The notes under the pieces were generated by a model that worked only from the letters and a program-made list of their open reading frames with translations, was not told where the DNA came from and made no database searches. The translations under genes were made by a program, and so were the position numbers. A stretch of 64,000 nucleotides of DNA from Natrarchaeobius oligotrophus (GTDB lineage: Archaea > Halobacteriota > Halobacteria > Halobacteriales > Natrialbaceae). Below, in pieces: positions 44,646-63,386 of the stretch. Every line of letters begins with the position of its first letter. Within the stretch, counting starts at the first letter, position 1. Location: contig NZ_REFZ01000009.1 of NCBI RefSeq assembly GCF_003841465.1, forward strand, positions 62,001-126,000, given 5' to 3'.

Positions 44646-45929
44646 TCAGTCGTTGCGATCCACCACGTCGGCCACCCGCGGGGAGGCCGACGAGCCTCTC
44701 GCGAGTATCACCACGGAGAGGACGGAGCCGGCCGCCGCGATCACCGCGAGGGACAGGAAAAACGCCTCCATCGAGAACTGGTTGAGGAGTAACCCACCGA
44801 CCGAAATGCTCGCAGCACCCAGACCGAACATGCCGAGGTACGTGTACCCGTAGGAAAGCCCGCGGGTTTCCGCGGGAGTGTAGACGGCGACCGACTCCTG
44901 GTAGAACGGTTCGATCGCAAAGAGCGTGAATCCAAGAACGCCACAGAAGAGGAGTATCGGGAGGAGCCCCATCGACGCGACGGGGACGAACGCGACCGCG
45001 AGGAGGCCGAGCGCCACGAAAATCGCGGCGAGCCCGCGCGCGACGGGGACGCGACTCGTTAGCTTCCCCGCGACGTACTGGCCCGCCATTCCCGCGACGA
45101 GCAACCAGACGTAAAAGTAGTCCCCGAGCGAGAACTCCATCAGGTCGCCCGGCGGCGCTATCCCGTCCATCGCGGGTACCCCGTTCAGTATCTCGGGGAG
45201 GTAGGTGAGAACGCCCCTGTAGTAGAGCCCGACGACCGTCACGATCGCGAACACGAGGAGGAACGTACTCGCAAACAGCGTCCGAGAGTTCGAGACGAGT
45301 TCGGAGAGAGACAGCGTTCCGCCGGAGTCGTCGCCCCCATCGCGCTCGAGCGCGGCGGTCGGATCGAACCGAGCCCGGAATCCGTAGACGGTCGCGAGGA
45401 TCCCCGGAACGGCGAGGACGAGCGCGACGTGTTGCCACTCGAGAACGAGGAGCATCGTCGCGGTGGCGAACGGCCCGAGCGCGATTCCGACGTTACCGGC
45501 GATTCCGTGCCAGGCGAACACCGTCCCTCGTTGTTCGACACCGGTACTGATCAGCGCGAGCCCTGCTGGGTGATACACGCTCGCGGTGACGCCCCAGAGC
45601 GTCAGGCTGACCGCGATCGCGTACACCGAATCGGAGAATCCGAGGAGGACGAACGAGGCGCTCATTCCGCCGAGACACGCGAGGATGAGCCGCCTGGGAC
45701 CGTACCGATCGACGAGCAATCCGGCCGGTAGCGCCCCGAGCCCGAACGGGGCGTATCCCAGCGCGACGATTAGCCCGAGCAGCGCCACGGACACGTCGAA
45801 TTGACCGATCCACACGACGAGAAAGATCGGGATCGCCAACTCGAACCAGTGAACGATGCCGTGGGCGATCATCGTGAACGCGGCGATGGCTCTATCGTTC
45901 TGATTCAACCCGTCCCGTGATGCGTTCAT
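44646..45929 (-). CDS. MFS transporter, copy 2
   Basis: 427 residues, 12 predicted helices, with the loop GLLVDRYGPRRLILACLGG (about 68-86) between helices 2 and 3. The central loop near 210-230 is acidic (ERDGGDDSGG). N-terminal TMIAHGIVHWFELAIPIFL resembles the FsR/tartrate-like carriers. It differs from the carrier at 5760-6989 in length and loop structure. A TATA-like gctaagtagg lies about 30 bases before the ATG. Substrate unknown. Confidence 0.87.
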   Translation of the reverse strand: MNASRDGLNQNDRAIAAFTMIAHGIVHWFELAIPIFLVVWIGQFDVSVALLGLIVALGYAPFGLGALPAGLLVDRYGPRRLILACLGGMSASFVLLGFSDSVYAIAVSLTLWGVTASVYHPAGLALISTGVEQRGTVFAWHGIAGNVGIALGPFATATMLLVLEWQHVALVLAVPGILATVYGFRARFDPTAALERDGGDDSGGTLSLSELVSNSRTLFASTFLLVFAIVTVVGLYYRGVLTYLPEILNGVPAMDGIAPPGDLMEFSLGDYFYVWLLVAGMAGQYVAGKLTSRVPVARGLAAIFVALGLLAVAFVPVASMGLLPILLFCGVLGFTLFAIEPFYQESVAVYTPAETRGLSYGYTYLGMFGLGAASISVGGLLLNQFSMEAFFLSLAVIAAAGSVLSVVILARGSSASPRVADVVDRND

Positions 45930-47207: not shown

Positions 47208-47954
47208 CTACTTGTAGGTGAGGTTCACTCCGATTTCGTTCGTCGTGCCGAGCAAGAGATCCGAAAGTTCGTTTTCGACGAAATCGCCTTTGAGGCGGTG
47301 CGTCGGTCCGGCGATGCTGAGCGCTCCGTAGACGCGTCCCGTGTTGTCGATGATGGGTGCGCCGATGGCGTTGACGCCTTTGACGTAGTGTTCCGTGTTG
47401 AGTGCGATCCCGTCGCTTCTGATCGTATCGAGCGTTTCGATGAGGGTTTCACGGTCACTGAACGCTGACTCCGGGCCGAATTCGTAGCCGTCGATGATCT
47501 CGCTGCGACGCGGTTCGGGGAGGTTTGCGAGGATCGCTCGTCCGCCGGCAAGATCGATCAGTTCCGCCTGCTTTCCGACGTAGGTGTCGGTCTGGATCGC
47601 GTGTTCACCGCTGCCCCCACAGAGGTAGATCGCCTTTCCGTTTTCTTCGGTAATGCACCAGACCTGTTCGTCCGTCTTCTCGGAGAGCTCGTCCACTTTG
47701 ACCTTCGCGATGTCGTACAGCTCGCGCCCGTTTCGCGCGATCATCCCGTAATCGAGGAATCTGAGACCCAGGCTGTACCGTCCGTTCTCTTTGACGACGA
47801 AATCGTGCTTTTCCAGCGTCGACAGGTGGACGTGAACGCTGCTTTTTGGAAGATCCACGGCCTTGGCCAGCTCCGTTACCCCGGCCTCCTCCCGCTGCTT
47901 TAGGGCCTCCATGATCGTAAAGAGGCGTTCGTCCGATTTCACCGTCTTGCTCAT
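47208..47954 (-). CDS. IclR family transcriptional regulator, copy 2
   Basis: 248 residues. The winged helix is SDERLFTIMEALKQREEAGVTELAKAVDLPKSSVHVHLSTLEK (given here in parts: start at residue 7, recognition helix near 34-48). The effector domain contains GGSGEHAIQTDTYVGKQAEL, LAGGRAILANLP and APIIDNTGRVYGALSIAGP. A TATA-like aattttatga is about 25 bases before the ATG. It faces the NicX-like gene across an 823-base gap and is the best candidate to control it and the minus-strand dioxygenase genes beyond. It is clearly divergent from copy 1. Confidence 0.88.
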   Translation of the reverse strand: MSKTVKSDERLFTIMEALKQREEAGVTELAKAVDLPKSSVHVHLSTLEKHDFVVKENGRYSLGLRFLDYGMIARNGRELYDIAKVKVDELSEKTDEQVWCITEENGKAIYLCGGSGEHAIQTDTYVGKQAELIDLAGGRAILANLPEPRRSEIIDGYEFGPESAFSDRETLIETLDTIRSDGIALNTEHYVKGVNAIGAPIIDNTGRVYGALSIAGPTHRLKGDFVENELSDLLLGTTNEIGVNLTYK

Positions 47955-48777: not shown

Positions 48778-49854
48778 ATGGCGAAAACGATACCACAGCT
48801 AACGGAGCTTTTTAAGCGAGAGCTCGAGATGTGTGACGTCACGCCCGACGAGACCGTCCTGGTCGTCAGTCAGGCAGAATCCCGCGAACCGTACATCGAG
48901 GCGTTCAAAAACGCCGCCGAGGTTATCGGTTCGACGGTCTCTCACCTCGAGCTTCCCGGACTCAAACACCCCATGTTTCCCTACGGCGGAAGTCCCGACT
49001 CGATGCCGCTCAGCGACGTCGACGAGCACATCCAGAACGATCCCGCCGCACGCGGAGCCCTGGAGAACTCCGACTTCGTCGTCGACCTCACCGCGGAGGG
49101 GTTAATCCACACGAAAGCGCGTACGCTCACGCTCGAAAACGGCGCTCGAATGATCTCCTGTTGGGAACCTGCGTCCATCCTCGAGCAGATGTTCCCGCGC
49201 GAAGATCTCCGAGAGCGAGTCGAAACCGCCGAACAGATGGTTATCGACGCCGACGAGATGCGCGTCACCTCGAAGGCCGGCACGGACGTCACCGTCGAAG
49301 TCGGTCAGGATCCGCCGACGGTTCCACAGTACGGGTACACCGACGAACCCGGCCGCTGGGACCACTTCGTCAGCGGCTTCATCGCGTTCTACCCGGTCGA
49401 CGGCTCGCAGAACGGGAAAATCGTTCTCGACGCCGGCGACGTGATCCTCCCGCTGCGACGGTACGTCGACAACCCGATCGAGTTCACGCTCGAAGACGGT
49501 TTCATCACCGATATCGACGGCGACGGTGCCGACTGTGCGCTGATCGAAAGTTACCTCGAGATGTGGGACGACGAGGATGCCTACGCCGCCTCGCACTTCG
49601 GGTGGGGAATGGACGAAACCGCTTCCTGGGAGAACATCGCCGCGTACGCGACGACCGGCGTCGACGCACGCGGAACGAACAATCGTTCGCAGATCGGGAA
49701 CTTCATGTGGTCGACCGGTCCGAATCGGTTCGTCGGTCGGGACACGAGAGCTCATCTTGACTTCCCAATGCGTAACTGTACCGTCTCCCTCGACGGCGAG
49801 GTCGTCGTCGAAGACGGCGACGTCGTCGATTCGCGACTGACGCCGAATCGGTAA
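48778..49854 (+). CDS. NicX-like 2,5-dihydroxypyridine 5,6-dioxygenase homologue (M29 aminopeptidase fold)
   Basis: 358 residues. The fold is that of M29 aminopeptidases, which includes the iron dioxygenase NicX that opens the ring of 2,5-dihydroxypyridine. In this protein His273 (ASHFGWG), His326 and Asp328 (RAHLDFPM) have a spacing of 53 and 2 residues. From memory this equals the NicX iron ligands His265, His318 and Asp320. The N-terminal domain (VLVVSQAESREPYIEAF and DFVVDLTAEGLIHTKART) is present. The start ATG follows TATA by about 25 bases. The alternative is a true peptidase of family M29. The neighbouring amidase and Mo hydroxylases favour ring cleavage. Confidence 0.78.
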   Translation: MAKTIPQLTELFKRELEMCDVTPDETVLVVSQAESREPYIEAFKNAAEVIGSTVSHLELPGLKHPMFPYGGSPDSMPLSDVDEHIQNDPAARGALENSDFVVDLTAEGLIHTKARTLTLENGARMISCWEPASILEQMFPREDLRERVETAEQMVIDADEMRVTSKAGTDVTVEVGQDPPTVPQYGYTDEPGRWDHFVSGFIAFYPVDGSQNGKIVLDAGDVILPLRRYVDNPIEFTLEDGFITDIDGDGADCALIESYLEMWDDEDAYAASHFGWGMDETASWENIAAYATTGVDARGTNNRSQIGNFMWSTGPNRFVGRDTRAHLDFPMRNCTVSLDGEVVVEDGDVVDSRLTPNR

Positions 49855-50014
49855 CGCCGGTTCCCGCCCACGAGGGCGACGCTCATCTCACCTTTTGCGT
49901 CGCGGCCGATCGGCGCCGGTTCGCAGTTCTCGAGCAGCGGCTACCGCGAGTGGTGGAACTGCCGTCGAGACGAATCGACGCCGGAGAACGTGCCGGCGCG
50001 ATCGATGCGATTGG

Positions 50015-50851
50015 TTACGAATCCGGCCAGTCGTAGGCGTCGGGCCGACGCTGGGGCAGCGTCGGCACCTTCTCACGCACCTCTTCGATCCGGCTCAGAT
50101 CGAGGTCGGCGGTAATCACGCGCTCGCCGTCCGACGCCTTGTTCGTCACCGTTCCCCACGGATCTGCGACGAGACTTCGGCCGTACGTCCACGCTCCGCC
50201 GGGCTTTTGCTTGCACGTCCCCGGCGCGACGACGAAGTACTGGTTTTCGATCGCCCGGCTACACAGGAGGTGGTCCCAGTGGTCCTTCCCGGTGTGGAGG
50301 GTGAACATCGCCGGGACAAGTACCACGTCGGCACCCTCGAGGCCGAGGATCCGGAACAGCTCGGGGTATCGCACGTCGAAACAGATCGTCATCCCGACGT
50401 CGACGCCGTTGACGTCCGCGATGACGATGTCGTCGCCCCCGCGCTCGACGTTGTCGCCGGTGTAGGCGTTGCCCCCGACGTTGGCGTTGAAGATGTGCAT
50501 CTTCTCGTACGTTTCCTGCACCTCGCCGTCCGGATCGATCAAGACGCTCACGTTCCGGAGGAGGTCGTCGTCGTCGACTTCCATCTTGATCGAACCCGCG
50601 ACGACGTGGACGCCGAGATCGGACGCCGCATCCTGGAGTTTCGGAAGCGTCGGACCGTCCATCGTCTCTGCGTGGGCTTTCTTTTCCTCGTCCGTTCCGG
50701 TGAAGTTGAAATTTTCCGGAAGGACGATCAGCTCGGGGTCGTCCTCGGCCGCTTCGTAGATATACTCCAGCGCCTTTTCGACGTTGTGCTCCCGGTCGCC
50801 GGTCACCTGCATCTGGACCAGCGACACCCGAAAGTCGGTATCCCGTACCAT
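50015..50851 (-). CDS. Carbon-nitrogen hydrolase (nitrilase superfamily amidase)
   Basis: 278 residues from the ATG at 50851. The catalytic triad is Glu46 (IVLPENF), Lys117 (YEKMHIF) and Cys157 (MTICFDVRYPE), all in standard context. It should hydrolyse a C-N bond of an amide, N-carbamoyl or omega-amide compound. Convergent with the NicX-like gene, it could carry out a deamidation such as maleamate or N-formyl hydrolysis after ring opening (inference). A TATA-like gtttatgg lies about 28 bases before the start. The general YbeM/Nit2-like amidase role is the alternative. Confidence 0.92.
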   Translation of the reverse strand: MVRDTDFRVSLVQMQVTGDREHNVEKALEYIYEAAEDDPELIVLPENFNFTGTDEEKKAHAETMDGPTLPKLQDAASDLGVHVVAGSIKMEVDDDDLLRNVSVLIDPDGEVQETYEKMHIFNANVGGNAYTGDNVERGGDDIVIADVNGVDVGMTICFDVRYPELFRILGLEGADVVLVPAMFTLHTGKDHWDHLLCSRAIENQYFVVAPGTCKQKPGGAWTYGRSLVADPWGTVTNKASDGERVITADLDLSRIEEVREKVPTLPQRRPDAYDWPDS

Positions 50852-50927
50852 ACTACTGTGGTACGAGGGCGACACCATAAACGCTGTGTTGGAAGGTCGG
50901 TCTCCGAACCGAGACCGTACCCGCCGA

Positions 50928-51719
50928 TTACAAGTTCGACTTGCTCGAGCCGCCGTCGACGGGAATCGCCGCGCCGTTGATGTAACTCGCGTGATCAGAA
51001 CAGAGGAACGCGATCGTCTCGCCGAGTTCGCGAGGCTCGCCCATCCTGTTCAGGGGAACGCTCTCGGACCGGGCTCCGATCCCCTCCTCGTAGCTGTCGT
51101 ACCTGCCTTTCTCGACTTCGTGTTCGATCTGCTCTTCGATGCGTGCTGTTTCGTACGGGCCGGGCATGACCGCATTCGCGCGCACTTCGGGGGCGAGTTC
51201 CTGCGAAAGGGTCTTTTCGAGACCGATGACGCTCATTCGAACCGAGTTCGAGAGCAGCAGCATCGGAATCGCCTCTTTGACGGTTTTCGACGTGATCGAG
51301 ACGATCGATCCGCCGTCCCCTTCTTTCAGGTGGGGAGCGGCTTCGCGGACGAGGCGAACGACGCTCATCACGAGCAGATCGTAGGCCTGATACCAGTCCT
51401 CGTCGCTCGTCTCGAGGAACGACCCCGGTGCGGGGCCGCCCGCGTTCGTCACGAGGTGGTCCAGCCCGCCGAACTCCTCGACTGCCGTCTCGACCATCGC
51501 CTCGATGTCGTCGTACTCGGTCAAATCACCCTGGCAGCCGACGACCTCCGCGTCGGTCGCCGCGTTCAGCTCCGACACCGCTTCGTCTAGCTTGTCTTCG
51601 TCGCGCCCGTTGATGACCACGTTGACGCCGTTCTCCGCGAGCGCTTTGGCCGCTGCTTTGCCGAGCCCGCTGCTCGAAGCCGAAACCAGTGCACTGTTGC
51701 CGCTGATATCCATCTGCAT
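50928..51719 (-). CDS. Atypical short-chain dehydrogenase/reductase-like protein
   Basis: 263 residues from the ATG at 51719 (ATG at 51713 is also possible). The overall fold is SDR, with NNAG-like LVTNAGGPAPGSFLE and C-terminal YINGAAIPVDGG. The coenzyme loop reads SASSSGLG instead of TGxxxGIG. At the catalytic Y-x3-K the sequence is Ser-x3-Arg (LLLSNSVRMSV). This matches the described SDR subgroup that lacks the normal catalytic residues (the BKR-like group). It may use another mechanism or be a non-catalytic partner. It sits between the amidase and the dioxygenase genes on the same strand. Confidence 0.85.
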   Translation of the reverse strand: MQMDISGNSALVSASSSGLGKAAAKALAENGVNVVINGRDEDKLDEAVSELNAATDAEVVGCQGDLTEYDDIEAMVETAVEEFGGLDHLVTNAGGPAPGSFLETSDEDWYQAYDLLVMSVVRLVREAAPHLKEGDGGSIVSITSKTVKEAIPMLLLSNSVRMSVIGLEKTLSQELAPEVRANAVMPGPYETARIEEQIEHEVEKGRYDSYEEGIGARSESVPLNRMGEPRELGETIAFLCSDHASYINGAAIPVDGGSSKSNL

Positions 51720-51817
51720 CGTCCTCACGTTCGCATCCAGTACCAAAAAGGATGGTGTCTCGGTCCGACGTTCGGGTCGAACGGTCACGGATCGCTCGAT
51801 AGCGGATCCCGGGCCGA

Positions 51818-52282
51818 TCAGTGTTCGTCTTCCGGCCCGTACGGATCCTCGAGCAGCGAGGAGAATTCGTCGACGTCCTGACGAGCGATGCTCTCGAGGT
51901 GTGCGACGCTCAGACGGATCGAAAAGCCGAGCTTCGGACTCTCGAGGGCGAGCGCGTCGCCGTTTTCCGTAACGACTCTGGTGAACGTGACCTGTGCGAA
52001 CTCGTTTGCGATCTGAACCGGTTTGTCGCTCTCTACGACGTCGGCGTCAGAAACGGACTCCCGGCCGACGGGGAGTTCGAACGGAAAGTCGGCCGGATCC
52101 TGCCAGGCGATCGACTCGAGCGCCAGCGGATCGAGGCGGATTCGGTCGCCGTCTTCGTCGTCGATCTCGAGTCGGGACCCCTTCGGGGTGTGAATCCGAC
52201 AGACCGTGACCGTCCGCGAGCCGTCGGTGATCTCTAGGGGATCGTCGCGTTCGATGTGTCTCTCTCGATCGCTGTCACTCAT
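51818..52282 (-). CDS. Unknown two-repeat acidic protein, linked to Rieske dioxygenase
   Basis: 154 residues, strongly acidic, one cysteine, no signal or membrane segment. It consists of two related halves: residues 16-70 (TVTVCRIHTPKGSRLEI ... IRLDPLALESIAWQDPADF) and 89-144 (QVTFTRVVTENGDALALE ... SIRLSVAHLESIARQDVDEF). Each looks like a small mainly-beta unit ended by a helix (LESIA-x-QD-x3-F). Its ATG is two bases beyond the stop of the dioxygenase beta gene, so the two are almost certainly translated together. No known family is recognised. It may be an assembly or electron-transfer helper of the oxygenase, but this is a guess from position. Confidence 0.8.
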   Translation of the reverse strand: MSDSDRERHIERDDPLEITDGSRTVTVCRIHTPKGSRLEIDDEDGDRIRLDPLALESIAWQDPADFPFELPVGRESVSDADVVESDKPVQIANEFAQVTFTRVVTENGDALALESPKLGFSIRLSVAHLESIARQDVDEFSSLLEDPYGPEDEH

Positions 52283-52284
52283 GA

Positions 52285-52809
52285 TCAGAGGAACTCCGAG
52301 AGGTTCTGGGTTCCCATTACGGTCTGGTCGAGGAGGACGCGCCGGTCCGCCAGTTTGAGGTAGCCGTCCTCTCGGCGGAGAGTATCGACGCGTTCGCCGG
52401 AGATGAACGTCGGCTCCGCCTCCTCGCCCCGGAGGCGAAGCAACAACATGTTGTTACGCTCGCGAACCTCGTCGCCGTCGACCGACTCGATGCGCACGTT
52501 CGTCACGAACCGACGCGTCCGGGACGGCGGGTTCTCCGCCCAGGCGTAGTCCTTCTCGTATCGCGCGATCCGCGCTTCGAACGAGTCGATGTCCTCCTGA
52601 AGGTGGAAACTCTTCTCGCTGAACACCGGGACGTCGTCGCCCGCTTCCCGGGTGATCCGTCGCGGAACCTCGTAGCTGATGTCGTCCGTGAGGAGGTCGA
52701 GCCACTCGTCGAGGTCGCGATTGTCGAGGAGATCGGCCTCGTACGCGAGAAACGTCCGAACCTCTTCGAGGAGTTCACGGCGTTCCTGGGTTGGCTTGAC
52801 GTAGCTCAT
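52285..52809 (-). CDS. Aromatic-ring-hydroxylating dioxygenase beta subunit
   Basis: 174 residues, NTF2-like fold of the BenB/BphE small subunit. The conserved start LLEEVRTFLAYEADLLDNRDLDEWLDLL is present, broken here between residues 12 and 40, and followed by DISYEVPRR. Also seen are RTRRFVTNVRIESVDGDEV (about 98-116) and the C-terminal RREDGYLKLADRRVLLDQ. The beta subunit has a structural role in the alpha3beta3 oxygenase. Its ATG overlaps the alpha stop by four bases (ATGA). Confidence 0.93.
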   Translation of the reverse strand: MSYVKPTQERRELLEEVRTFLAYEADLLDNRDLDEWLDLLTDDISYEVPRRITREAGDDVPVFSEKSFHLQEDIDSFEARIARYEKDYAWAENPPSRTRRFVTNVRIESVDGDEVRERNNMLLLRLRGEEAEPTFISGERVDTLRREDGYLKLADRRVLLDQTVMGTQNLSEFL

Positions 52810-54191
52810 TCTGCTCCCTCCGGAAGCGGTTCCTTCGTGATTTCTTCCTGCCAGCGGCGGTGGAACCAGCGACCGTACCCTTCCTGGTAGTGGTTGTTGT
52901 AACAGACGCCCGGACCCGGCCACTCGTCGTGGATCTCGGTGTTGCTCATGTTGCCGAGCCCCATCTCGTAGCTCGTCTCGACGCCCTGTCTCTTGGCGAC
53001 GGTCGATCCCGCAGCCTCGGTGATCCCGTCCCAGACCGCGAGATCGTCTTGCTCCCAGTTGCCCGCCGGCGTGAACGAACTGAGCGCGACGTTGTTGATC
53101 TTCCGTTTTTGCTCTTCGGGTGCGTCTTTCGGAACGAGCACCCACGACCAGAGTTCGGTTTCGCCAGGCGCTCGAGGCTGCCACTGGCGGAGACAGAGGA
53201 AGCCGCTGTCGTTGCTTCCGGTTCCCTTGCCGACCTGGATGAACGAGAGGTTCGGGAAGATCGTTCCGATGTTGACGACGGACCGGCGAGCGAGGTCGTA
53301 CTGCTCCTGGCTGATGTTCTCCGCCGAGAAGCAGTCGTGGATCTCCTCGTCGTAGCCGTAAAACGGCGAGTAGTCCTCGCCGATCATCCCCGCCGCAAAG
53401 GAGTGGCCCATCTCGGGTAACTCCTCGAAGTGCGTGTGAACGCGCTCTGCGAGCCCGCCGTAGGGACCCTCGTCCCAGTGCCAGATCTCGGAGATCAGCC
53501 CGCCTTCGATCGCCGACTGGTGGGTCGTCGAGATGTGGTAGTCGTCTCCACCGAAGTTCTCACAGGGCTGCTTCCAGTCGACCGGCAGCACGTAGCGGTA
53601 CGGTTCCCCGTAGACCTCCATGCCGTTGGTGGGGAATTTGAAGTTCATGTCGATGTACCACTTCATATCCCCGAGATGCTCCTCGAGCGAGGGGGAGTCG
53701 GGGTTCATCGTCGCGAAGACGAGTCCAGCGTAGCTGTCGACTTTCGCCGGCTTCGGCAGCTTCCACTCGTCGGGATCGATCTCCTTGTACGCCTCGTGTT
53801 TGAACGTGACCCCGACTAGCTCTCCCTTGTTGTTGTACGTCCACCCGTGGTAGGGACACCGGAAGTGGGAGGTGTTACCCTGCTCGGCGCGACAGAGCTT
53901 GGTGCCGCGGTGTCCGCAGCTGTCGAACAGCACCTGAACGTTCCCGTCCTCGTCTCGCGTGAAGATGAACGGATCGGAGCCGCCGATGTACCGCCGCGCG
54001 TAATCACCAGGCTCGGGAATCTCGGATTCGTGTCCGATGAAGACCCAGTTGTCGTTGAACACTCGGTCCTGTTCGAGTTCGAACACTGCCTCGTCGTTGC
54101 GCAACCGGATCGGGTATCTCCCGTCCATGAGGGACTGATCGAGCTGTTCGATCATTTCCTTGGTTTCGGTCGAGAGGTTTGTTGCTGCCAT
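52806..54191 (-). CDS. Rieske aromatic-ring-hydroxylating dioxygenase alpha subunit
   Basis: 461 residues. The Rieske 2Fe-2S ligands are Cys92/His94 (SCGHRG) and Cys112/His115 (CPYHGW). The mononuclear iron site shows Asp216, His219 and His224 in ENFGGDDYHISTTH, the bridging Asp and two His ligands. It adds O2 to an aromatic ring to give a cis-dihydrodiol, or hydroxylates with loss of a substituent. The length fits benzoate/anthranilate/biphenyl-type oxygenases. A strong T-rich TATA (attttttatt) about 28 bases before the ATG heads the operon alpha-beta-unknown protein. No ferredoxin or reductase gene is adjacent. Confidence 0.94.
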   Translation of the reverse strand: MAATNLSTETKEMIEQLDQSLMDGRYPIRLRNDEAVFELEQDRVFNDNWVFIGHESEIPEPGDYARRYIGGSDPFIFTRDEDGNVQVLFDSCGHRGTKLCRAEQGNTSHFRCPYHGWTYNNKGELVGVTFKHEAYKEIDPDEWKLPKPAKVDSYAGLVFATMNPDSPSLEEHLGDMKWYIDMNFKFPTNGMEVYGEPYRYVLPVDWKQPCENFGGDDYHISTTHQSAIEGGLISEIWHWDEGPYGGLAERVHTHFEELPEMGHSFAAGMIGEDYSPFYGYDEEIHDCFSAENISQEQYDLARRSVVNIGTIFPNLSFIQVGKGTGSNDSGFLCLRQWQPRAPGETELWSWVLVPKDAPEEQKRKINNVALSSFTPAGNWEQDDLAVWDGITEAAGSTVAKRQGVETSYEMGLGNMSNTEIHDEWPGPGVCYNNHYQEGYGRWFHRRWQEEITKEPLPEGAE

Positions 54192-54377: not shown

Positions 54378-54986
54378 TTACTTGAAGAGACTTCGGACGC
54401 GATTCCGGTATCCATCCGACTGCGATTCGTCCGATTCCGGCTGGAGTCGCGACTCGAGGTCGCTGAAGAAGCGGTTGACGACCCTGTTCGCGACGGGCGT
54501 GATCAGCCGCTGTCCCATCCGCGCCAGCCTGCCGAAGACGTCCGTTTCGGTCCACCAGTCGATACGAACGCCGGTTTCGGTTTCGTGGAGTTCCATTCCC
54601 GACTCCATCTCGAACGAACTGTCGCTGGCCGATCCCTCGCCGGCCGCGTTCATGACCGGGAACTCCCGGTCGGTGATCGTGACGATCGTCTCGAAGGAGG
54701 GTTTGACGCTTCCGACGCCGAGTTCGATCAGAGCCGCGTACTGGCCTCCGTCCTCGAACGCTCGCTCGGCGACGACTTCGGGATCGGCGTTCGGTAACAA
54801 GTCCTCTTCGTCCGGGCCGTCGTCCGCCTGGGCGGCGAGCTCGTCGAAATCGGGGTCATCGCCGTCGACCTGAACGAGAAACTGACAGCCCGGCAACGCT
54901 GCCTCGATCATCCTCGGATCCGAGAGTGCGAGCCAGGCTTCTTCGATGCTGACGTCCTCCAGTTCGAACGAACCATTGAACTCCAT
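54378..54986 (-). CDS. CoxG-like SRPBCC protein, copy 2, with acidic insert
   Basis: 202 residues. The CoxG pattern is visible as FNGSFELEDVSIEEAWLALS (start), ALPGCQFL, LGVGSVKPSFETIVTI (about 88-103) and a C-terminal segment GQRLITPVANRVVNRFFSDL. Compared with copy 1 it has an inserted stretch (about residues 41-70) made almost only of Asp, Glu and Ala. It lies between the Rieske operon and the LLM oxidoreductase. It probably serves the second Mo hydroxylase further along the minus strand. Confidence 0.85.
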   Translation of the reverse strand: MEFNGSFELEDVSIEEAWLALSDPRMIEAALPGCQFLVQVDGDDPDFDELAAQADDGPDEEDLLPNADPEVVAERAFEDGGQYAALIELGVGSVKPSFETIVTITDREFPVMNAAGEGSASDSSFEMESGMELHETETGVRIDWWTETDVFGRLARMGQRLITPVANRVVNRFFSDLESRLQPESDESQSDGYRNRVRSLFK

Positions 54987-55077: not shown

Positions 55078-56085
55078 TCAGAAACTCGGCATAACCTCGT
55101 CGCGAACGGTCTCGATGAACCGTTCCTGGTCGGGACTCGCGCTGTGGAAGACGACCCGGTCGAAGCCGGCATCGTTCCACTCGTCGACGATGTCGATCAG
55201 ATCGGCGGGATCAGTGGTGATCGTGAACGAGTCCGCGAGCTGCTCTTCGCCGACGAGATCGCCGTGTTTCTGGAGGTAGCGGGGATCGGAAACCGCGTGT
55301 TCGAACATCATCGGGAGCAATAGGACGCGCCAGGGCTTGATCGAGCGCATCGCTTCGTTTTCGGTTTCGCCGTACGAGACGAGGACGTTGACCGATCGTT
55401 CGATTTCGTCCGGATCCTCGTTGTGTGCGGACTTCTCGACGCCCCGTTCGATGCCCGGGAACAGGTCCCCGGCGAGCGACTCCGGATCGGCCTCCGGAAC
55501 GGTGAACAGCCCGTCCCCGAGATCCCCGGCCATCCGCGCCGACATCGGGCCGTTCGCCGCGACGTGGATCGGCGGCGCTTCGTTCGGCCCGTTGTACAGG
55601 TGTGCGGAGTTAAGCTGCCAGAAGTTTCCGTCGAAGTCGACGTAGTCCTCCTCGAAAAGTTTCCGTACGATGCGAATCGCCTCCGCGGTGCGCCGAGCCC
55701 GCTCACCGTACTCCGGCCATGGAAATCCGAGCGGATCCTCGTTCAACGGCGCGCCGGTTCCGATACCGAAGACGAGCCGATCGGGGTACAGCTCCGCGAT
55801 CGTCGCCATGTGGTGTGCGAGGTTCGCGGGGTGATGGCGGTTCAGTACCGCGGTTACCCCCGGCCCGATCGTGATATCATCCGTCCGCTCCAGCGCGACC
55901 GGCATCCACGTCCAGCAGTCGCCCCCGTTCGCCTCGGATCCGTCCCCGACGCGGTCGAACCAGGGGTGGAAGTGGTCGTTCACCCAGACGCTCTCGAAGC
56001 CAGCCTCCTCTGCCAGCACGGTCTGTTCGAGACACTCCGCCGGAGAGAACTGCTCCAGCGACGCGTACAGGCCAATATCTACCAT
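55078..56085 (-). CDS. LLM class flavin/F420-dependent oxidoreductase
   Basis: 335 residues, luciferase-like TIM-barrel. Typical blocks are VLAEEAGFESVWVNDHFHPW (about 25-44), ITIGPGVTAVLNRHHPANLAHH (in parts, about 70-92), LVFGIGTGAPLNE (about 103) and PPIHVAANGPMSARMAGDLGDG. It resembles F420-dependent methylene-H4MPT reductase/Fgd-like enzymes, and haloarchaea make F420. It may carry out a hydride transfer or oxygenation step on a pathway intermediate. On the same strand as the dioxygenase and Mo-hydroxylase genes. Confidence 0.9.
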   Translation of the reverse strand: MVDIGLYASLEQFSPAECLEQTVLAEEAGFESVWVNDHFHPWFDRVGDGSEANGGDCWTWMPVALERTDDITIGPGVTAVLNRHHPANLAHHMATIAELYPDRLVFGIGTGAPLNEDPLGFPWPEYGERARRTAEAIRIVRKLFEEDYVDFDGNFWQLNSAHLYNGPNEAPPIHVAANGPMSARMAGDLGDGLFTVPEADPESLAGDLFPGIERGVEKSAHNEDPDEIERSVNVLVSYGETENEAMRSIKPWRVLLLPMMFEHAVSDPRYLQKHGDLVGEEQLADSFTITTDPADLIDIVDEWNDAGFDRVVFHSASPDQERFIETVRDEVMPSF

Positions 56086-56169: not shown

Positions 56170-57174
56170 TCACGGGGAATCGTACGTTCCACGACCGACG
56201 GTGAATCCCTCTTCGTGTTTGATCACCTCCGGATTGACGACGTGTCGGAGCCGCTTGCCACACAGCGCGCGGCTGATCTCGTCGCGTCCCATCTCGATCG
56301 CGCGTTCGGTGGTCTCGACCGTGTCGCCGCCGTGGTGGGGCGAACAGACGATCCCCTCACACGAGAGCACCGCCCCCTCCGGCGGCTCCGTCTCGAAGAC
56401 GTCCAACCCCGCTCCTGCGAGTCTGTCCTCCGTGACTGCCGCGACGAGCGCGTCCTCGTCGACGACCGGCCCGCGGGCCGTGTTGATCAGGATTGCATCG
56501 TCGTCGAGTCGCTCGAGCGCCTGCTCGTCGAACAGGTGGTGCGTTTCCGCGGTTAGCTGGCAGTGGATACTCACCGCGTCGGCTCGCGACAGGAGTTCGT
56601 CGAACCCGACGCGCTCGACGCCCAGTCGATCGAAGAGGTCGCTCGGAACGTACGGATCGAAGGCGATCACTTCGAGGCCGAGCGCCGCCGCCTTCTCCGC
56701 GAACGTCCGCCCGACCTGACCGAAGCCGACGATCCCGACCGTTTCGCCCGCGACCGACCTGACGTACGTCCGGTCTCCCCATCCCGGTTCGGAGCGCATC
56801 TGGCGATCGCAGTAGGCGACGTCACGGGCGACCGCGAGCAACAGCGCGATCGCGTGTTCGGCCAGCTCGTCGTTCATGTATCCCCTGAGCGCGGAGACGG
56901 CCACCCCGAGTCGGTTCGCGGCCGCGACGTCGATCGTGTCGTACCCTGCGCCGTTTCGAAACGCCAGTCGGAGGTCGGTCGCCGACTCGAGCATCGGCGC
57001 CGTCACCGGCGTCGTCGTCGTCACTACGACGGTCGCGTCGCGACACTCTTCGATTCGGTCGGCCTCGGTCTCGGCGTCGCTCTCGCGGACCGTACCGCCC
57101 GCGTCGCGAATCGCTTCGGCGTACGGTTTGCGCGTTCCGAACCGTCTGTCCAGGAAGAGTACAGTTTCGGCCAT
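56170..57174 (-). CDS. D-2-hydroxyacid dehydrogenase (NAD-binding)
   Basis: 334 residues from the ATG at 57174. The Rossmann motif GIVGFGQVGRTFAEKA (about 144-159), catalytic Arg in ILINTARGPVVDE (about 230), Glu in LDVFETEPPEG (about 259) and His in CSPHHGGDT (about 279) are all in order. It reduces 2-keto acids or oxidises D-2-hydroxyacids, for example hydroxypyruvate or phosphoglycerate-type substrates. It is positioned after the second CoxM on the same strand, separated by 156 bases. Confidence 0.92.
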   Translation of the reverse strand: MAETVLFLDRRFGTRKPYAEAIRDAGGTVRESDAETEADRIEECRDATVVVTTTTPVTAPMLESATDLRLAFRNGAGYDTIDVAAANRLGVAVSALRGYMNDELAEHAIALLLAVARDVAYCDRQMRSEPGWGDRTYVRSVAGETVGIVGFGQVGRTFAEKAAALGLEVIAFDPYVPSDLFDRLGVERVGFDELLSRADAVSIHCQLTAETHHLFDEQALERLDDDAILINTARGPVVDEDALVAAVTEDRLAGAGLDVFETEPPEGAVLSCEGIVCSPHHGGDTVETTERAIEMGRDEISRALCGKRLRHVVNPEVIKHEEGFTVGRGTYDSP

Positions 57175-57330
57175 ACACGCTCGTCTCACTGCGAGACGTT
57201 AACGCCACCGGCTCGGCGGTCCGTTCCGACGGTCGACTGCGGCCATCGTCGTCGGCCACTCGAGAAAACGCCGGCGCTGGTCGATCGGACGGCGTCGAAA
57301 AAACGATCGACCGGGCGGTCGGCTTTCGGT

Positions 57331-58203
57331 CTACAGCTGCGAGACGGCTCGCGTCAGCGCGCGCTTCGAGTACACCTTCAACTTCTGTTCGCGGAACTCG
57401 GGCGACGCGTCCTGATCGCTCATCATCATCGCCGTGTTTAGCGATTCACCGGCGCGTTCGGCGGCAGCCTCTACCGCCGCCTCGGTTGCTTCGCTTCCTT
57501 CGAGGGCCTCCTCGACGGCCGACAGTCGGGACGGCCGGTCCATCGCGCCGTTTGCCGTAACGGCGGCGTCGACGATCGTTCCGTCGTCGGCTTCGAGGAC
57601 GACCGCGACGCCGACGATCGCGTACCCCGACGCCGGGCTGCGATCCTTCTCGTAGGTGCTCACGGCGTTCGGACCGTGTGCCGGTACCGTAATCGAGGTG
57701 ACGAGCTCCGCCGGACCGACGTCGGTTTCGTACATTCCGTAGAAGAACTCGTCCGCGTCGACCGTTCGATCCCCGTCGGAGCCGGTGATCGTGACCGATC
57801 CGCCGTGTGCGAGCAGCGCCGCGGGCAGGTCCGAGGCGGGGTCGGCGTGGGCGATGTTCCCGCCGACGGTTCCGCGGTTTCTGACCTGCCTGTCGCCGAT
57901 GTTCTCCGCGGCTTCCGCGAAGGCCGTCGCCTCGTCGTGGAGTTCGTCGGATTTCGCGACCGGTGCGTAGTTGGTCGTCGCACCGATCTCGAAGCCGTCG
58001 TCGGTTCGCTCGATTCCCGACAGTTCCGAGAGTCGGCTGATATCGATCAACAGATCTGGGGTAGCGAGCCCGGTCTTCATCATCGGGATCAGGCTGTGGC
58101 CGCCTGCGAGCACCTTGACGTCGCGGTCGTCGTTCGTTTCGAGCAACTCGACCGCGTGTTCCGCGCTCTCGGCCGTCTCGTGGTCGAACTGTGGCGGGTA
58201 CAT
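57331..58203 (-). CDS. Molybdenum hydroxylase FAD-binding subunit, copy 2 (CoxM-like)
   Basis: 290 residues with standard FAD motifs: VLAGGHSLIPMMKTGLATPD (about 35-54) and RGTVGGNIAHADPASDLPA (about 113-131). The C-terminal flavoprotein domain ends in YSKRALTRAVSQL. Unlike copy 1 it matches the consensus of CODH-type medium subunits. Its start overlaps the large subunit stop by one base, and it is the third gene of a coxS-coxL-coxM operon. Confidence 0.93.
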   Translation of the reverse strand: MYPPQFDHETAESAEHAVELLETNDDRDVKVLAGGHSLIPMMKTGLATPDLLIDISRLSELSGIERTDDGFEIGATTNYAPVAKSDELHDEATAFAEAAENIGDRQVRNRGTVGGNIAHADPASDLPAALLAHGGSVTITGSDGDRTVDADEFFYGMYETDVGPAELVTSITVPAHGPNAVSTYEKDRSPASGYAIVGVAVVLEADDGTIVDAAVTANGAMDRPSRLSAVEEALEGSEATEAAVEAAAERAGESLNTAMMMSDQDASPEFREQKLKVYSKRALTRAVSQL

Positions 58204-60611
58204 TACTGCTCACCTCCTTTCTCGACCGCACGCCAGACTTTCTCCGGCGTCGCGGGTAGTTCGACGTGATCGACGCCGAACGGCTCGAGCGCGTCGACGA
58301 CGGCGTTGACGAGTGCCGTCGGCGCGGGGATCGTTCCCGCTTCACCGATTCCTTTCAATCCGAGCTCGTTCGTCGGCGACGGCGTCACCGTACACTCGAC
58401 GTCGTAGTCCGGTAGCTGGTTCGCCTTCGGAAGCGCGTAGTCCATGAGGGTTCCGGAGACCAGCGAGGCGTTGTCGTCGTACTTGCCCTCCTCGAACAGC
58501 GCCGGACCGAGGCCCTGTGCGATGCCGCCGTGGATCTGTCCCTTCACGATCTGGGGGTTGATCTGTTCGCCGCAGTCGTCGACGGCGACGTACTCGAGAA
58601 AGTCGATCTCGCCGCTTTCCGGATCGACCTCGACGATACAGACCTGCGAGCCGAACGGAATCGTCGGCGCGTCCGGATCGAAGAACGTCGTCGCGTCGAG
58701 GCCGGGTTCCATCCCGTCCGGGATGGCGTTCGCCTGGTGGGCCTCGTGGGCGATTTCGGCCATCGAGATCGAGCGCTCCGGAGCGCCCTTGATGGAGAAC
58801 TCCCCGTCCTCGAAGACGACGTCGTCCTCGTCGGCTTCGAACTGGTGGGCGGCGATTTTGGTCGCCTTCTCCACGATCTTCTCGGCGCTTTTCGCCATCG
58901 CGTTACCGCCGACGACCGCGCTTCGGCTTGCGAACGCGCCGGTTCCCTGCGGAACCTGATCGGTGTCGCCCTGGATCACTTCGACGTCCTCGTAGGGGAC
59001 GCCGAGTTCCTCCGCGACGACCTGTGCGAACGCGGTCTTGTGACCTTGTCCCTGATCCGCGGTGCCCGAGTACGCCGTCACCGTACCCGAGGGGTGGAAC
59101 CTGATCAACGAACTCTCGTGGAACGTCGGCAACGGTCCCGGAACTCCCGGCTTCGAGGGGCCGAGACCCGTGAGTTCGACGAACGAGGCGATGCCGATTC
59201 CGACGTAGCGGTCCTCGTCGCGCAGCTCTTTCTGTCGCTGTCGGTACTGATCGTAGTCTGCGATTTCGAGCGCTTTCTCGAGCGTTTTCTCGTAGTCGCC
59301 GCTGTCGTAGACCATGTTCCCCACCGTTTCGGCGTACGGGAACTCCTCCGGGGGGATGAAGTTCCGCCGGCGAATCTCGGCCGAATCGATGTCGAGGTCC
59401 CTGGCAGCCATCTCGAGCAGCCGCTGGATGACGAACGTCGCTTCCGGCTGTCCCGCGCCGCGGTATGCGTCGACCGGCGACGTGTTGGTGAACGTCCCGA
59501 TGACGTTCACTCGCATCGCCGGAACGTCGAACGGTCCGGGGAGCATCATCCCGTACGATCCGGTGGGGATCAGCGGCGCGTGCGTCGACACGTACGCGCC
59601 GAGAGCCGCGTGGGTGTCGGCCTGTAGCCCGAGAATGGTTCCGTCGTCGTCGAGGGCCATCGACGCTTCGGTGACGTGGCCGCGGGCGTGGGCGTCCGTC
59701 ATGTGTGCCTCGGATCGCTTCTGCACCCACTTCACCGGCCGCTCGAGTTCCATCGAACACCAGGACGTGAGCGCCTCCTCCGGGTAGTGGTGGATCTTGA
59801 CGCCGAACCCGCCGCCGACTTCGGGGGCGACGATCCGGATCTTGTGTTCCGGATAGTCGAGCGTGTTCGAGAGCCAGAGCCGATGGTGGTGTGGGTTCTG
59901 GCTCGTCATCTCGACGGTGAGCTTCTCGGTCAGCGGATCGAAGTCCGCGATGGTCGCCCGCGGCTCGATCGCGTCCGGGATCACCCGGGGATGCTCGAGT
60001 TCGATGTCGACCGTGTGGTCCGCGGACTCGAACGCCTCGTCGACGGCCTCCGGATCGCCGAGTTCCCAGTCGAAGATGACGTTGTCGGGTGCACCTTCGT
60101 AGAGGGCGGGAGCGTCGTCCTCGGTCGCTTCGGCCGGATTCGCGACGGCATCGAGTCGCTCGTACTCGACGTCGACCAGTTCGGTCGCGTCGTTGGCGAC
60201 GTAGCGGTCGGTCGCCACCACGACGGCGACCGGATGGCCCTGGTGGAGGGCCCGGTCGCCCGCGAGCAGCGGGTAATCGGGCAGGAACATCTCGGCCGGA
60301 CCGGCCTCCATCGGCCAGTTCTCTTTGGGCACCATCATTCCGATCGACTCGAGCGTCCCCGGCAGGTCGCTCTCGGCGAGATCTTCCGGCGTCAGGACGA
60401 GCTCGACGTCCTCGTGGGCCTCGGCCTCGCTCGCGTCCACGCGTTCGACCTTCGCGTGCCCGTACGGGCAACGGACGACGGACATGTGGAGCATGCCGTC
60501 GTGCGTGATGTCGTCCGTGTACTTCGCCTCGCCGGTCAACAGCGACGGATCTTCGCGGCGATCGAGTGCGGCTCCGAGAACCCCTCCGTCGGGTCCCTCG
60601 TCGTCGGTCAT
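58203..60611 (-). CDS. Molybdenum hydroxylase large subunit, copy 2 (CODH form II-like)
   Basis: 802 residues from the ATG at 60611. The active-site loop is [13 protein letters not shown] (about residue 380), the AYRGAGRPE type found in form II CO-dehydrogenase-like proteins of unknown substrate, not the AYxCSFR of real CO dehydrogenase. Cofactor-binding [17 protein letters not shown] and catalytic Glu in GLKGIGEAG (about 756) are present. It is about 70 residues shorter than copy 1 and lacks its N-terminal extension. Likely a hydroxylase of an N-heterocycle or a CoA-thioester; not identifiable. Confidence 0.93.
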
Positions 60612-61102
60612 CGTGCCTCCTCCGTCGCGAGCTTGTCGGCCGCCTCCTCGACGGCGTTGACGATGTTGTGGTAGCCGGTACACCGACAGATGTTCCCCTC
60701 GAGCGCCTCCCGGATCTCCTCGCGGGTCGGGTCCGGGTTTTCCTCGAGGAACGAGGCGGTCGAAAGCAACATGCCGGGCGTACAGTAGCCACACTGCAGT
60801 CCGTGTTCTTCCTGGAAGCTCCGCTGGATGGGGTGGAGCTCGTCGTCGTCACCCAGCCCTTCGACCGTCTGAATCTCCGCACCGTCGGCCTGGACCGCCA
60901 GAACGGTACACGATTTCACGACGTCTCCGTCCAGACGAACCGTACACGCCCCACAGAGCGTACTTTCGCAACCGACTTTCGGGCCGGTGTAACCGAGTTC
61001 TTCTCTGAGCGCGTGGACGAGCAACGTCCGGGGCTCGACCTCGAGTTCGTGTTCGGAACCGTTGACCGTTACGTCGACGGTAGTTGTGTTTTGCGCTGTC
61101 AC
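60608..61102 (-). CDS. Molybdenum hydroxylase 2Fe-2S subunit, copy 2 (CoxS-like)
   Basis: 164 residues. Cluster ligands are in [16 protein letters not shown] (about 44-59), [14 protein letters not shown] (about 103) and [10 protein letters not shown] (about 137). The chosen start is a GTG at 61102 because a TATA-like cattatca lies about 25 bases upstream and no in-frame ATG is close; the longer open frame upstream is not protein-like. It overlaps the large subunit gene by four bases and leads the operon. Confidence 0.93.
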
Positions 61103-61271
61103 ATGGAGCAATAGCGAGAATGCGGTGATAATGTTTGTGGTGAGCGCCTGATACGGATCGTTGTACCGATTTGCCGGTGCAAGCGCGGCCCCCCTTCGGT
61201 TGACCGGCACCGACGGACAACGGACCGTCTGTGCCCGCCACGACCGATCCCGTCACCGTCACGGGGCGGCG

Positions 61272-62582
61272 TTATCCGAACACCGCCTCGAGACCGATCT
61301 CGAGGGCTTCGATCACGCGATCGACGTCGTCCCGGTCGACACAGAACGGCGGCGCGAGGATGAGCTGGGTCGACGGCCGGCCAGGCAGCGTGAGGACGCC
61401 TTCGTCGGCCATCCGATCCGCGACGGCGTCGACCGGATTCTCCCCGGCGTCGACTCTCGGATCGACGAACGGCCTCCCGGTTTCCGGATCGACGATCGGC
61501 AGACCGAACAGCAGTCCCCGTCCCCGAACGTCGGCCACGACGTCGTGATCCGATTCGACCCCCCGTAGCCGCCGCTCGAGGTACGGACCGACGTCGTTGA
61601 CGGCGTCCAGCCCCCATTCATCGTACTCGTCGATGGCCGCGATCCCCGCCGAACAGGAGAGCGCGTGGCCCCCGAACGTCTGGCCGAGCTCGACTCCCTC
61701 GCGGCGAACCCACGAGCCGATTTCCTCGGAAACGGTGACGCCCGCGAGCGGAGCGTGTGCGCTCGTGACGCCTTTCGCGAAACTCATCAGGTCCGGCTCG
61801 ATCCCCTCGGTCTGGTGTGCGAACCACTCGCCGCACCGCCCGAACCCGGTGAGCACCTCGTCCGCGACGAGCAGGATGTCGTACTCGTCACAGAGCGATC
61901 TGACGCGCTCGAAGTAGCCGGGCGGTGGCGCGTACGCCCCGCTGCTGCCGCCGACGACCTCCGTGAGCAGCGCCGCGATCGAGTCGGGTCCCTCGTTGCG
62001 GATGACGAACTCGAGGTGAGCAATCGCCCGGTCAGCGAGCTCGTCCGGATCGTCGACGTCGAACGCTTCGGGGGAGAGGGGTGGCAGGAATTTTGCGGAA
62101 CCGGGCACGCCGACCGTCGACGAGAGGGCGGTTCGCGTCGCCGTGTCTCCACCCAGCGTTCCGGTTCCGAGCGTCGTTCCGTGATAGGACCGATACCGCG
62201 TGAGTACGGTCGGGGCGTCCGTCATCGCCCGTGCCAGGTGGACGGCGACCTCGTTCGCTTCGCTTCCCGACACCGAGAAGAACACGTCGCTGTGGCGTTC
62301 GGGACCGACGGCGAGTATCCGGTCGGCGAGTTCCGTTCTGACGTCGTTGTGCGACCCCGGCGAGACGAATTGCACCCGTTCTAGCTGCTCGCTCATCGCC
62401 GCCGCGATCCGGTCGTTGCTGTGCCCGAGATTGACACAACAGAGTTGCGACAGCGCGTCGAGATACGTCCGCCCGTCTGCGTCCGTGACGTACGCTCCGT
62501 CCCCGTCGACGATCGTCGGTACGTCGACGCCGGGGTGGTGCCAGTGCGATAGCACGTCCGATCGTTGGCTCGACTCAACCAT
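61272..62582 (-). CDS. Class III PLP-dependent aminotransferase
   Basis: 436 residues from the ATG at 62582. The PLP Lys is Lys270 in MSFAKGVTSAHAPL and the PLP-nitrogen-binding Asp is Asp241 in LLVADEVLTGFGR. The phosphate-binding SVSGSEANEVA is near 103-113 and HGTTLGTGTLGG near 134. It is closest in style to beta-alanine/omega-amino acid:pyruvate aminotransferases. It would move the amino group of an omega-amino acid or amine onto pyruvate or 2-oxoglutarate. A T-rich TATA (ctatcttttt) about 28 bases before the start indicates its own promoter. Confidence 0.92.
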   Translation of the reverse strand: MVESSQRSDVLSHWHHPGVDVPTIVDGDGAYVTDADGRTYLDALSQLCCVNLGHSNDRIAAAMSEQLERVQFVSPGSHNDVRTELADRILAVGPERHSDVFFSVSGSEANEVAVHLARAMTDAPTVLTRYRSYHGTTLGTGTLGGDTATRTALSSTVGVPGSAKFLPPLSPEAFDVDDPDELADRAIAHLEFVIRNEGPDSIAALLTEVVGGSSGAYAPPPGYFERVRSLCDEYDILLVADEVLTGFGRCGEWFAHQTEGIEPDLMSFAKGVTSAHAPLAGVTVSEEIGSWVRREGVELGQTFGGHALSCSAGIAAIDEYDEWGLDAVNDVGPYLERRLRGVESDHDVVADVRGRGLLFGLPIVDPETGRPFVDPRVDAGENPVDAVADRMADEGVLTLPGRPSTQLILAPPFCVDRDDVDRVIEALEIGLEAVFG

Positions 62583-62660
62583 GTTCCTGTGTTTCGCTCG
62601 GCTGTCAAAAAGATAGCGCCGGTTTTTCACCGACGTCTCCGCGGACGCAGGTTCCGTCCG

Positions 62661-63386
62661 TCAGTAGTTGACGAATCCACCGTCCACGTTCAGCGCCTGT
62701 CCGGTGACGATTCCGCTCTCTTCGGTTGCGAGGTAGCTAACCGCGCTGGCGATATCCGATGGAGTGACTCGTCGGTCGAGATCCTGTTGGTCGACGATCG
62801 CGTCCCAGAACTCCTCGCCGGCCTGTAGCGAGGCCGGTGACGTCGTCAACCCGGGCATGACCGCGTTCACCCGGATCCCGTCATCGCCGAGTTCGGTCGC
62901 CATCGAGCGCGTCAGTCCGAGCACCGCCGCCTTCGACGCCACGTAGTGGAGAAAGCCCGGCACGCCCGTTACCGCCACGTTCGAGGAGATGTTCACGATC
63001 GATCCTCCCTCCGACATCCGTGTGATCGCGGCCTTCGACGTGAGAAAGACGCCCGTGACGTTGACGTCGAACACCCGCTCCCACTCCTCGCGTTCGATCT
63101 CGTCGAAGCGCTTTTTGTCCGTAACGAGGGGCTCGAAGTAGCCCGCGTTGTTGACGAGGACGTCCACCGAGAGACCGTCGAACGCCTCCTCGAGGGACTC
63201 CTCGTTCGTAACGTCTGCTCGTCGGTACTCTGCGCTTCCACCCGCCTCGCGAATCGACTCGATCGTTTCCGCCGCGTCCTGAACGTCGAAGACGACGACG
63301 TGGAATCCATCTGCGGCGAGCGTTTCGCTGATTTCCCGTCCGATTCCAACTGCACCGCCGGTAACGACTGCCGCTCGATCCGACAT
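62661..63386 (-). CDS. Short-chain dehydrogenase/reductase (classical)
   Basis: 241 residues from the ATG at 63386. The coenzyme loop is VTGGAVGIGREI (about 8-19), NNAG near 84 and the catalytic Ser-Tyr-Lys in NISSNVAVTGVPGFLHYVAS followed by K (about 133-153). It is a typical 3-oxoacyl/alcohol dehydrogenase-type SDR, and in a dioxygenase cluster it could act as the dihydrodiol dehydrogenase, re-aromatising the cis-diol to a catechol. TATA-like gataatacg is about 26 bases before the ATG. Confidence 0.92.
   Translation of the reverse strand: MSDRAAVVTGGAVGIGREISETLAADGFHVVVFDVQDAAETIESIREAGGSAEYRRADVTNEESLEEAFDGLSVDVLVNNAGYFEPLVTDKKRFDEIEREEWERVFDVNVTGVFLTSKAAITRMSEGGSIVNISSNVAVTGVPGFLHYVASKAAVLGLTRSMATELGDDGIRVNAVMPGLTTSPASLQAGEEFWDAIVDQQDLDRRVTPSDIASAVSYLATEESGIVTGQALNVDGGFVNY

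Follow-up and report, generated by a model that had tools for sequence, protein, structure and literature searches.

The window analysed here is a stretch of 64,000 nucleotides from the haloarchaeon Natrarchaeobius oligotrophus (contig NZ_REFZ01000009.1, positions 62,001 to 126,000). At 48778..49854, on the plus strand, lies a gene encoding a NicX-family protein, that is, a non-haem Fe(II) ring-cleaving dioxygenase, as judged by phmmer, metal ligands, an AlphaFold2 fold and its place in a subclade with branch support of 98/95. The reading frame is open over 48754-49854; translation from the ATG at 48778 yields 358 amino acids (aa), and the ATG at 48754 is a possible start further upstream. Convergent with this gene is a nitrilase-superfamily amidase (50015..50878, minus strand; PF00795, E 1.8e-55; top PDB match mouse Nit2), in which the Glu-Lys-Cys triad described by the first-pass annotation of this DNA is indeed intact (E55-K126-C166). 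Behind it on the minus strand come a short-chain dehydrogenase/reductase (SDR) (50928..51788; PF13561, E 1e-52), a 154-aa protein of no recognised family (51818..52282), and the beta (52285..52809; PF00866, E 3e-34; 174 aa from MSYVKP) and alpha (52806..54191; PF00355, PF00848) subunits of a Rieske ring-hydroxylating dioxygenase, the alpha subunit having Rhodococcus naphthalene dioxygenase as top PDB match (2b1x, E 5e-89). The Rieske pair, the 154-aa protein and an extradiol dioxygenase at the edge of the window, all on the strand of the nitrilase, did not figure in the first-pass account.

The similarity of the window protein to NicX is far beyond chance. NicX (7cn3/7cup) is its sole PDB sequence match by phmmer (E 6e-65), the alignment spanning the whole length (residues 6-351 versus 6-343 of NicX) at 35-36% identity to the Pseudomonas putida enzyme. 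No Pfam or NCBIfam model matched, so that an annotation pipeline would label the protein hypothetical. The iron ligands of NicX are H265, S302, H318 and D320, supported by R293, H105, E177 and H189 (PMC7910607). Alignment mapping places H273, S312, H326 and D328 at the ligand positions and R303, H111 and H196 at those of R293, H105 and H189, all of them kept. The His273/His326/Asp328 triad with its 53- and 2-residue spacing, from which a NicX-like iron site had been proposed, is exact by this mapping, and the fourth ligand, the serine S312, which was missing from that list, is present as well. The AlphaFold2 model (pLDDT, a predicted local confidence, 90.1) overlays on NicX structures with template modelling (TM) scores of 0.88-0.91 (7cn3, E 1.4e-41). 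The protein is a true NicX relative.

A different identity had been left open, namely that of an M29 metallopeptidase (aminopeptidase T/S/PepS), a kind carried by nearly all haloarchaea. The AlphaFold2 model does show remote fold kinship to PepS/AmpS/AmpT (TM about 0.54-0.62), and weak M29-kind relatives occur in 292/292 sampled haloarchaea, where they are other genes. However, the window protein does not match PF02073, nor any Pfam model up to E 10, the M29-like sequences have no equivalents of NicX H265 and S302, and the tree sets the NicX superfamily, including the window protein, apart from them at 99/98 on a long branch. Pfam, tree and ligands thus rule out a peptidase, whose probability is practically nil, and the phylogeny with M29 peptidases and NicX that had been suggested as a check comes out on the side of NicX.

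NicX relatives form four groups in the tree, each standing as one side of a well-supported branch: canonical NicX including that of P. putida (99/97), the haloarchaeal group NicXc (100/100), a set of proteins from actinobacteria and sphingomonads (100/100), and the window protein together with two Natribaculum longum plasmid proteins (100/98). This last group joins the actinobacterial-sphingomonad one at 98/95, apart from the clade to which NicX of P. putida belongs. A first tree, built without the N. longum sequences, had united the window protein and the bacteria with Rieske operons at 89/65 only, with a long-branch warning; the support rose to 98/95 in the final tree, to which the two N. 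longum copies and Rhodococcus YF3 were added and from which near-duplicates were thinned.

Across the subclades, alignment indicates a constant iron site and a variable substrate pocket. Among the residues typical of the canonical clade, those of the substrate network (L104, H105, E177, H189) and the channel residue E308, only the two histidines are kept in the window protein (H111, H196), whereas L104, E177 and E308 are replaced by I110, Q184 and F318. The glutamine and phenylalanine are common to the window protein and all compared bacterial members of its subclade, while in NicXc the positions of E177, H189 and E308 are occupied by S, V and H. In view of the changes to Q184 and F318, the window enzyme may act on a compound other than 2,5-dihydroxypyridine. 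Compared with NicX of P. putida KT2440 (7cn3, 7cnt, 7cup), the window protein is alike in full-length homology, fold, four ligands and the equivalents of R293 and H105, but it belongs to a separate subclade, with a changed pocket and a Rieske-extradiol-nitrilase setting instead of a nicotinate one.

This setting is conserved in bacteria. Gene neighbourhoods were counted at 19 bacterial loci of the window's NicX subclade and at 62 loci of canonical NicX. A LigB-type extradiol dioxygenase is present at 19/19 subclade loci, the Rieske beta subunit at 18/19 and a nitrilase at 18/19, whereas each of the three is found at 0/62 canonical loci. Both Rieske subunits occur at 18/19 subclade loci, the exception (L018) being a short contig, an SDR at all 19 and a NuoF-like reductase at 17. 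The window SDR has its counterpart directly upstream of NicX in the bacterial operons, and the window holds the same set at 48778-54191, where the subclade NicX gene has Rieske alpha/beta, SDR and nitrilase genes adjacent. The functional tie between nitrilase and NicX-like gene, at first proposed from adjacency in a single genome, is supported by this co-location in 18 of the 19 bacterial loci. Two further partners are shared with canonical NicX: an isochorismatase-family amidase (18/19 subclade and 37/62 canonical loci), which matches 3ot4/3uao and N-carbamoylsarcosine amidohydrolases, and a maleate isomerase (18/19 and 31/62), which scores 279 bits against the solved P. putida maleate cis-trans isomerase 4fq7. 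Family, iron site, fold, subclade and conserved gene set are established by computation.

Since isochorismatase and maleate isomerase are present, the bacterial subclade would end like the canonical NicX route, through maleamate, maleate and fumarate. The Rieske and LigB partners suggest that it adds an upper pathway in which a carbocycle is dihydroxylated and opened, and the association of Rieske dioxygenase, dihydrodiol dehydrogenase and extradiol dioxygenase suggests that the pyridine ring is fused or linked to a carbocycle.

In archaea, two copies of the window-type cluster are carried by plasmid unnamed2 of N. longum TRM20345. Cluster 1 comprises an isochorismatase gene (4526-5197, plus strand) followed on the minus strand by genes for nitrilase (5203-6039), NicX (6050-7114), a small protein (7215-7481), Rieske beta (7482-8018), Rieske alpha (8023-9408), an HcaB-like dihydrodiol dehydrogenase (9528-10322) and an extradiol dioxygenase (10323-11240), and then an SDR (11382-12173, plus) and an old-yellow-enzyme type gene (12313-14295, minus). 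From nitrilase to extradiol dioxygenase, this is an uninterrupted run of seven minus-strand genes with NicX inside. The window proteins are 58% (nitrilase), 62% (SDR) and 64% (Rieske alpha) identical to their N. longum counterparts. The extradiol enzyme found in archaea belongs to the catechol 2,3-dioxygenase type and has no kinship with LigB, so that one enzyme has been swapped for another at what is probably the same stage of the pathway. The corresponding gene of the window is at 63492..64000 (minus strand), its start lying past the window edge, in the adjoining L122; the protein of about 293 aa matches XylE (1mpy, E 6e-18), carries H140, H202/203 and E254, and is 50% identical to the extradiol enzyme of the N. 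longum NicX operon.

These partners bear on an alternative in which the substrate is monocyclic. A Rieske dioxygenase and an SDR would turn a hydroxypyridine or pyridine carboxylate into 2,5-dihydroxypyridine, which the NicX-like enzyme would open, with the extradiol dioxygenase acting elsewhere. In its favour, the bacterial operons encode the maleamate amidase and maleate isomerase known from the 2,5-dihydroxypyridine route, and Rhodococcus PY11 reportedly possesses, in its hpo genes, a pathway with a Rieske-type 2-hydroxypyridine dioxygenase. However, a monocyclic route has no need of the extradiol gene that lies inside the N. longum operon, nor of LigB, present at every bacterial subclade locus counted and absent around canonical NicX, and the pocket residues are unlike those of canonical NicX. 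This alternative is considered unlikely.

Another link comes from Rhodococcus pyridinivorans YF3, whose plasmid unnamed2 (NZ_CP040721.1) is the top plasmid match of the bacterial subclade and whose source is a quinoline-degrading bioreactor. One strand of the plasmid carries genes for XdhC, a CoxG-like protein, CoxL, CoxS and CoxM; the other carries MoaA, MoaD, MoaE, Rieske beta, Rieske alpha, isochorismatase, NuoF-like reductase and ferredoxin, then SDR, NicX-like protein, LigB, nitrilase, small protein, GntR and maleate isomerase. In the public annotation of this plasmid (L135), the NicX relative WP_138846137.1 (20001-21014) is labelled hypothetical and the LigB-family protein (21043-22176) protocatechuate 3,4-dioxygenase; both look mis- or under-annotated. 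YF3 CoxL has quinoline 2-oxidoreductase as top PDB match. Strain YF3 converts quinoline to 2-hydroxyquinoline, and the later steps require oxygen (PMC7193041). The link between operon and quinoline is circumstantial. Rieske alpha/beta, SDR, NicX-like protein, nitrilase and small protein are shared by the window and the Rieske-NicX-LigB operons of actinobacteria and sphingomonads, among them that of YF3; in YF3, as in the window, a molybdenum hydroxylase is near. The archaeal version differs by having a type I extradiol dioxygenase where the bacteria have LigB and by the lack of a NuoF-like reductase and a maleate isomerase nearby, and the window small protein is duplicated.

The ring-fission product of 5,6-dihydroxy-2(1H)-quinolinone is a 5-hydroxy-2-pyridone substituted at C6, i.e., a 6-substituted 2,5-dihydroxypyridine, and thus has the exact hydroxyl pattern needed by NicX. 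The pathway through this quinolinone is a recognised quinoline route (PMC9029321). Its molybdenum hydroxylase, ring dioxygenase, dihydrodiol dehydrogenase and extradiol cleavage fit the gene set, although it is known from metabolites, the literature searched having yielded no account of its genes, and the link to these genes is one that we infer. The window enzyme is, on balance and with moderate confidence, taken to be a distinct-subclade NicX-family Fe(II) dioxygenase within an aerobic set degrading a benzo-fused or benzo-linked N-heteroaromatic compound, most likely a quinoline or quinolone.

The substrate, order of steps and products that we infer for this gene set would be as follows. Entry by a molybdenum hydroxylase is plausible in the window strain and likely in YF3. 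The Rieske dioxygenase would then form a cis-dihydrodiol on the carbocycle, which an SDR would re-aromatise, and the extradiol dioxygenase (of the catechol 2,3-dioxygenase type here, LigB in bacteria) would open the carbocycle to give a 5-hydroxy-2-pyridone bearing a side chain. The NicX-like enzyme would cut the C5-C6 bond of the pyridine ring, yielding an N-formyl- or N-acyl-maleamate, of which the nitrilase would hydrolyse the amide(s), aided in N. longum and bacteria by the isochorismatase-family amidase. If the side chain is still on at the NicX step, the product would be an N-acylmaleamate, which would account both for the altered pocket residues and for the constancy of the nitrilase; with the side chain taken off beforehand, N-formylmaleamate would result and the nitrilase would act as a deformylase. 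The first version, in which the subclade opens a 6-substituted 5-hydroxy-2-pyridone directly and the route passes via a nitrilase-cut N-acylmaleamate rather than N-formylmaleamate and a deformylase, is put forward only tentatively, its chances being well below even.

In a further alternative, the NicX fold acts on a non-pyridine ring, e.g., an aminophenol or another carbocyclic substrate. The replacement of the pocket residues E177 and E308 by Q and F and the second ring-cleavage enzyme in the operon would agree with it, whereas the maleamate-type amidases and maleate isomerase that follow in bacteria imply a ring nitrogen, which makes such a substrate improbable.

Upstream of the Rieske genes, the minus strand of the window continues as part of a run of 14 genes from 63998 to 50015, extradiol dioxygenase to nitrilase, in which no gap exceeds 186 bases. 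In order of position are found a CoxG-like molybdenum hydroxylase accessory protein (54378..54986; PF06240, E 3e-14), a luciferase-like oxidoreductase using F420 or flavin mononucleotide (55078..56085; PF00296, E 3e-51), a D-2-hydroxyacid dehydrogenase-like protein (56170..57189; open reading frame and spacing, the family being assigned by inspection), a molybdenum hydroxylase with its flavin adenine dinucleotide (FAD) subunit CoxM (57331..58203; PF00941, PF03450), large subunit CoxL (58203..60611; PF02738, PF20256; AYRGAGQ signature, lacking the CO dehydrogenase cysteine) and 2Fe-2S subunit CoxS (60608..61210; both [2Fe-2S] motifs, true start probably further downstream), a class III aminotransferase-like protein (61272..62630, by inspection) and an SDR that is a weak candidate for the cis-dihydrodiol dehydrogenase (62661..63464). 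These last two are respectively 30% and 34% identical to an aminotransferase-like open reading frame and an HcaB-like protein in L114, a locus on contig 2 of the same genome. Just past the window extradiol gene, an Amidohydrolase_2 protein of decarboxylase type (L122, 445-1530, minus strand) is a possible decarboxylase.

A second complete molybdenum hydroxylase, with FAD, 2Fe-2S and large subunits, stands at 24011-28243 (plus strand); it has SYRGFG, and its large subunit is 31% identical to that of the first (57331-61210, minus). The window thus does hold the two molybdenum hydroxylases from which, with NicX family membership, a nicotinate or nicotine route had been sketched, in which these enzymes would lead through 6-hydroxynicotinate to 2,5-dihydroxypyridine, NicX would cleave it and the nitrilase would serve as amidase. 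The separate subclade (98/95) and the Rieske and extradiol dioxygenases as constant partners speak against it. Moreover, the window CoxL ranks CO dehydrogenases first among PDB entries and quinoline 2-oxidoreductase (1t3q) fifth, standing nearer to these than to nicotinate dehydrogenase. This route is given little credence. Of the earlier suggestion of an archaeal route for pyridine-type compounds, the pyridine-ring part holds, whereas a nicotinate-like monocyclic pathway is probably wrong in view of the Rieske/extradiol partners and the kinship of CoxL.

Several points weigh against a quinoline-type pathway in the window strain. The enzyme set is known here from genes and models, and the YF3 link is that of one strain, which does not prove that the operon does the work. 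The loci counted in bacteria are related by descent, so that Fisher values calculated on them overstate independence and are indicative only. The window CoxL, which ranks CO dehydrogenase first, is only 35% identical to that of YF3, and its role may be in a different step. Between the Rieske genes and those for the extradiol enzyme and the second SDR lie 8-9 kb with aminotransferase, luciferase-like and hydroxyacid dehydrogenase genes, so that this extradiol enzyme and SDR could belong to another pathway. No side-chain aldolase or hydratase was identified, no isochorismatase gene is adjacent to the window gene set, and a search of the host genome, run without a positive control, found no maleate isomerase.

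Aerobic breakdown of N-heterocycles has been worked out in bacteria, and in the literature searched no description of its genes was found for archaea. Likewise, searches on haloarchaeal pyridine degradation, dihydroxykynurenate genes and quinoline clusters with NicX returned nothing at the gene level. If the quinoline-type reading is true, one conserved gene set joins two ring-opening steps, candidate genes become available for a quinoline route known here only from metabolites, and the set has passed from one domain to the other, between haloarchaea and actinobacteria of the soil, one of its ring-cleaving enzymes being replaced by an unrelated one. If direct opening of the substituted pyridone is also true, these would be the genes of a carbocycle-first quinolone route in bacteria and archaea, a first haloarchaeal N-heteroarene route, and the Rieske dioxygenases would have a new third component, a small protein. 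YF3 being a cultured quinoline degrader, the substrate of the whole NicX subclade is made directly testable.

The analysis also points to an undescribed protein accompanying haloarchaeal Rieske dioxygenases. The 154-aa protein, for which Pfam, NCBIfam and PDB gave nothing, is the third gene of haloarchaeal Rieske alpha-beta loci: by profile, it stands directly after the beta subunit in 19/20 of them (window locus, L137, L139-L156), including loci from genomes that lack a full-length NicX relative. A single-domain form occurs at 16/19 bacterial subclade loci. The predicted structure (pLDDT 82) consists of two similar strand-helix repeats, and the fold search gave weak PUR-repeat matches only (TM about 0.3), insufficient to name the fold. 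We regard the protein as a candidate for a third component of these dioxygenases.

A second haloarchaeal NicX-type cluster, that of NicXc, is found in 8/292 sampled haloarchaea, including the window strain itself (L114, contig 2, 197000-216900; the others are L115-L121). It includes Rieske alpha/beta, a thiamine pyrophosphate (TPP) enzyme, an alpha/beta hydrolase, an aspartate dehydrogenase, two VOC proteins and IclR, the Rieske genes being absent near NicXc in L121. Like the window type, NicXc has all four iron ligands and usually lies near Rieske alpha/beta and the 154-aa protein. However, it is a third NicX subclade, about 36% identical, with a pocket that differs from both NicX and the window type, and its partners are the TPP enzyme, alpha/beta hydrolase and aspartate dehydrogenase in place of the nitrilase. 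A kynurenate route was considered for this cluster but set aside, since NicXc has yet another pocket and the pattern of hydroxylation to be expected fits poorly.

On the other side of the NicX-like gene, an IclR-type protein (47208..47954, minus strand) is the probable regulator of the set, being 51% identical to the IclR beside N. longum cluster 1, and an MFS transporter (44646..45929, minus), 36-38% identical to the one beside the same cluster, may be an uptake protein. Elsewhere in the window, two proteins of the BKACE type (3-keto-5-aminohexanoate cleavage enzyme family) are encoded at 34359-35315 (plus strand) and 38314-39255 (minus), with an acyl-CoA synthetase and an IclR nearby; the former scores 396 bits against the 3,5-dioxohexanoate:acetyl-CoA model, whose cut-off is 430. 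A cyclase/arylformamidase-like protein (3661-4452, minus strand) has a weak NCBIfam match to the arylformamidase of the tryptophan pathway.

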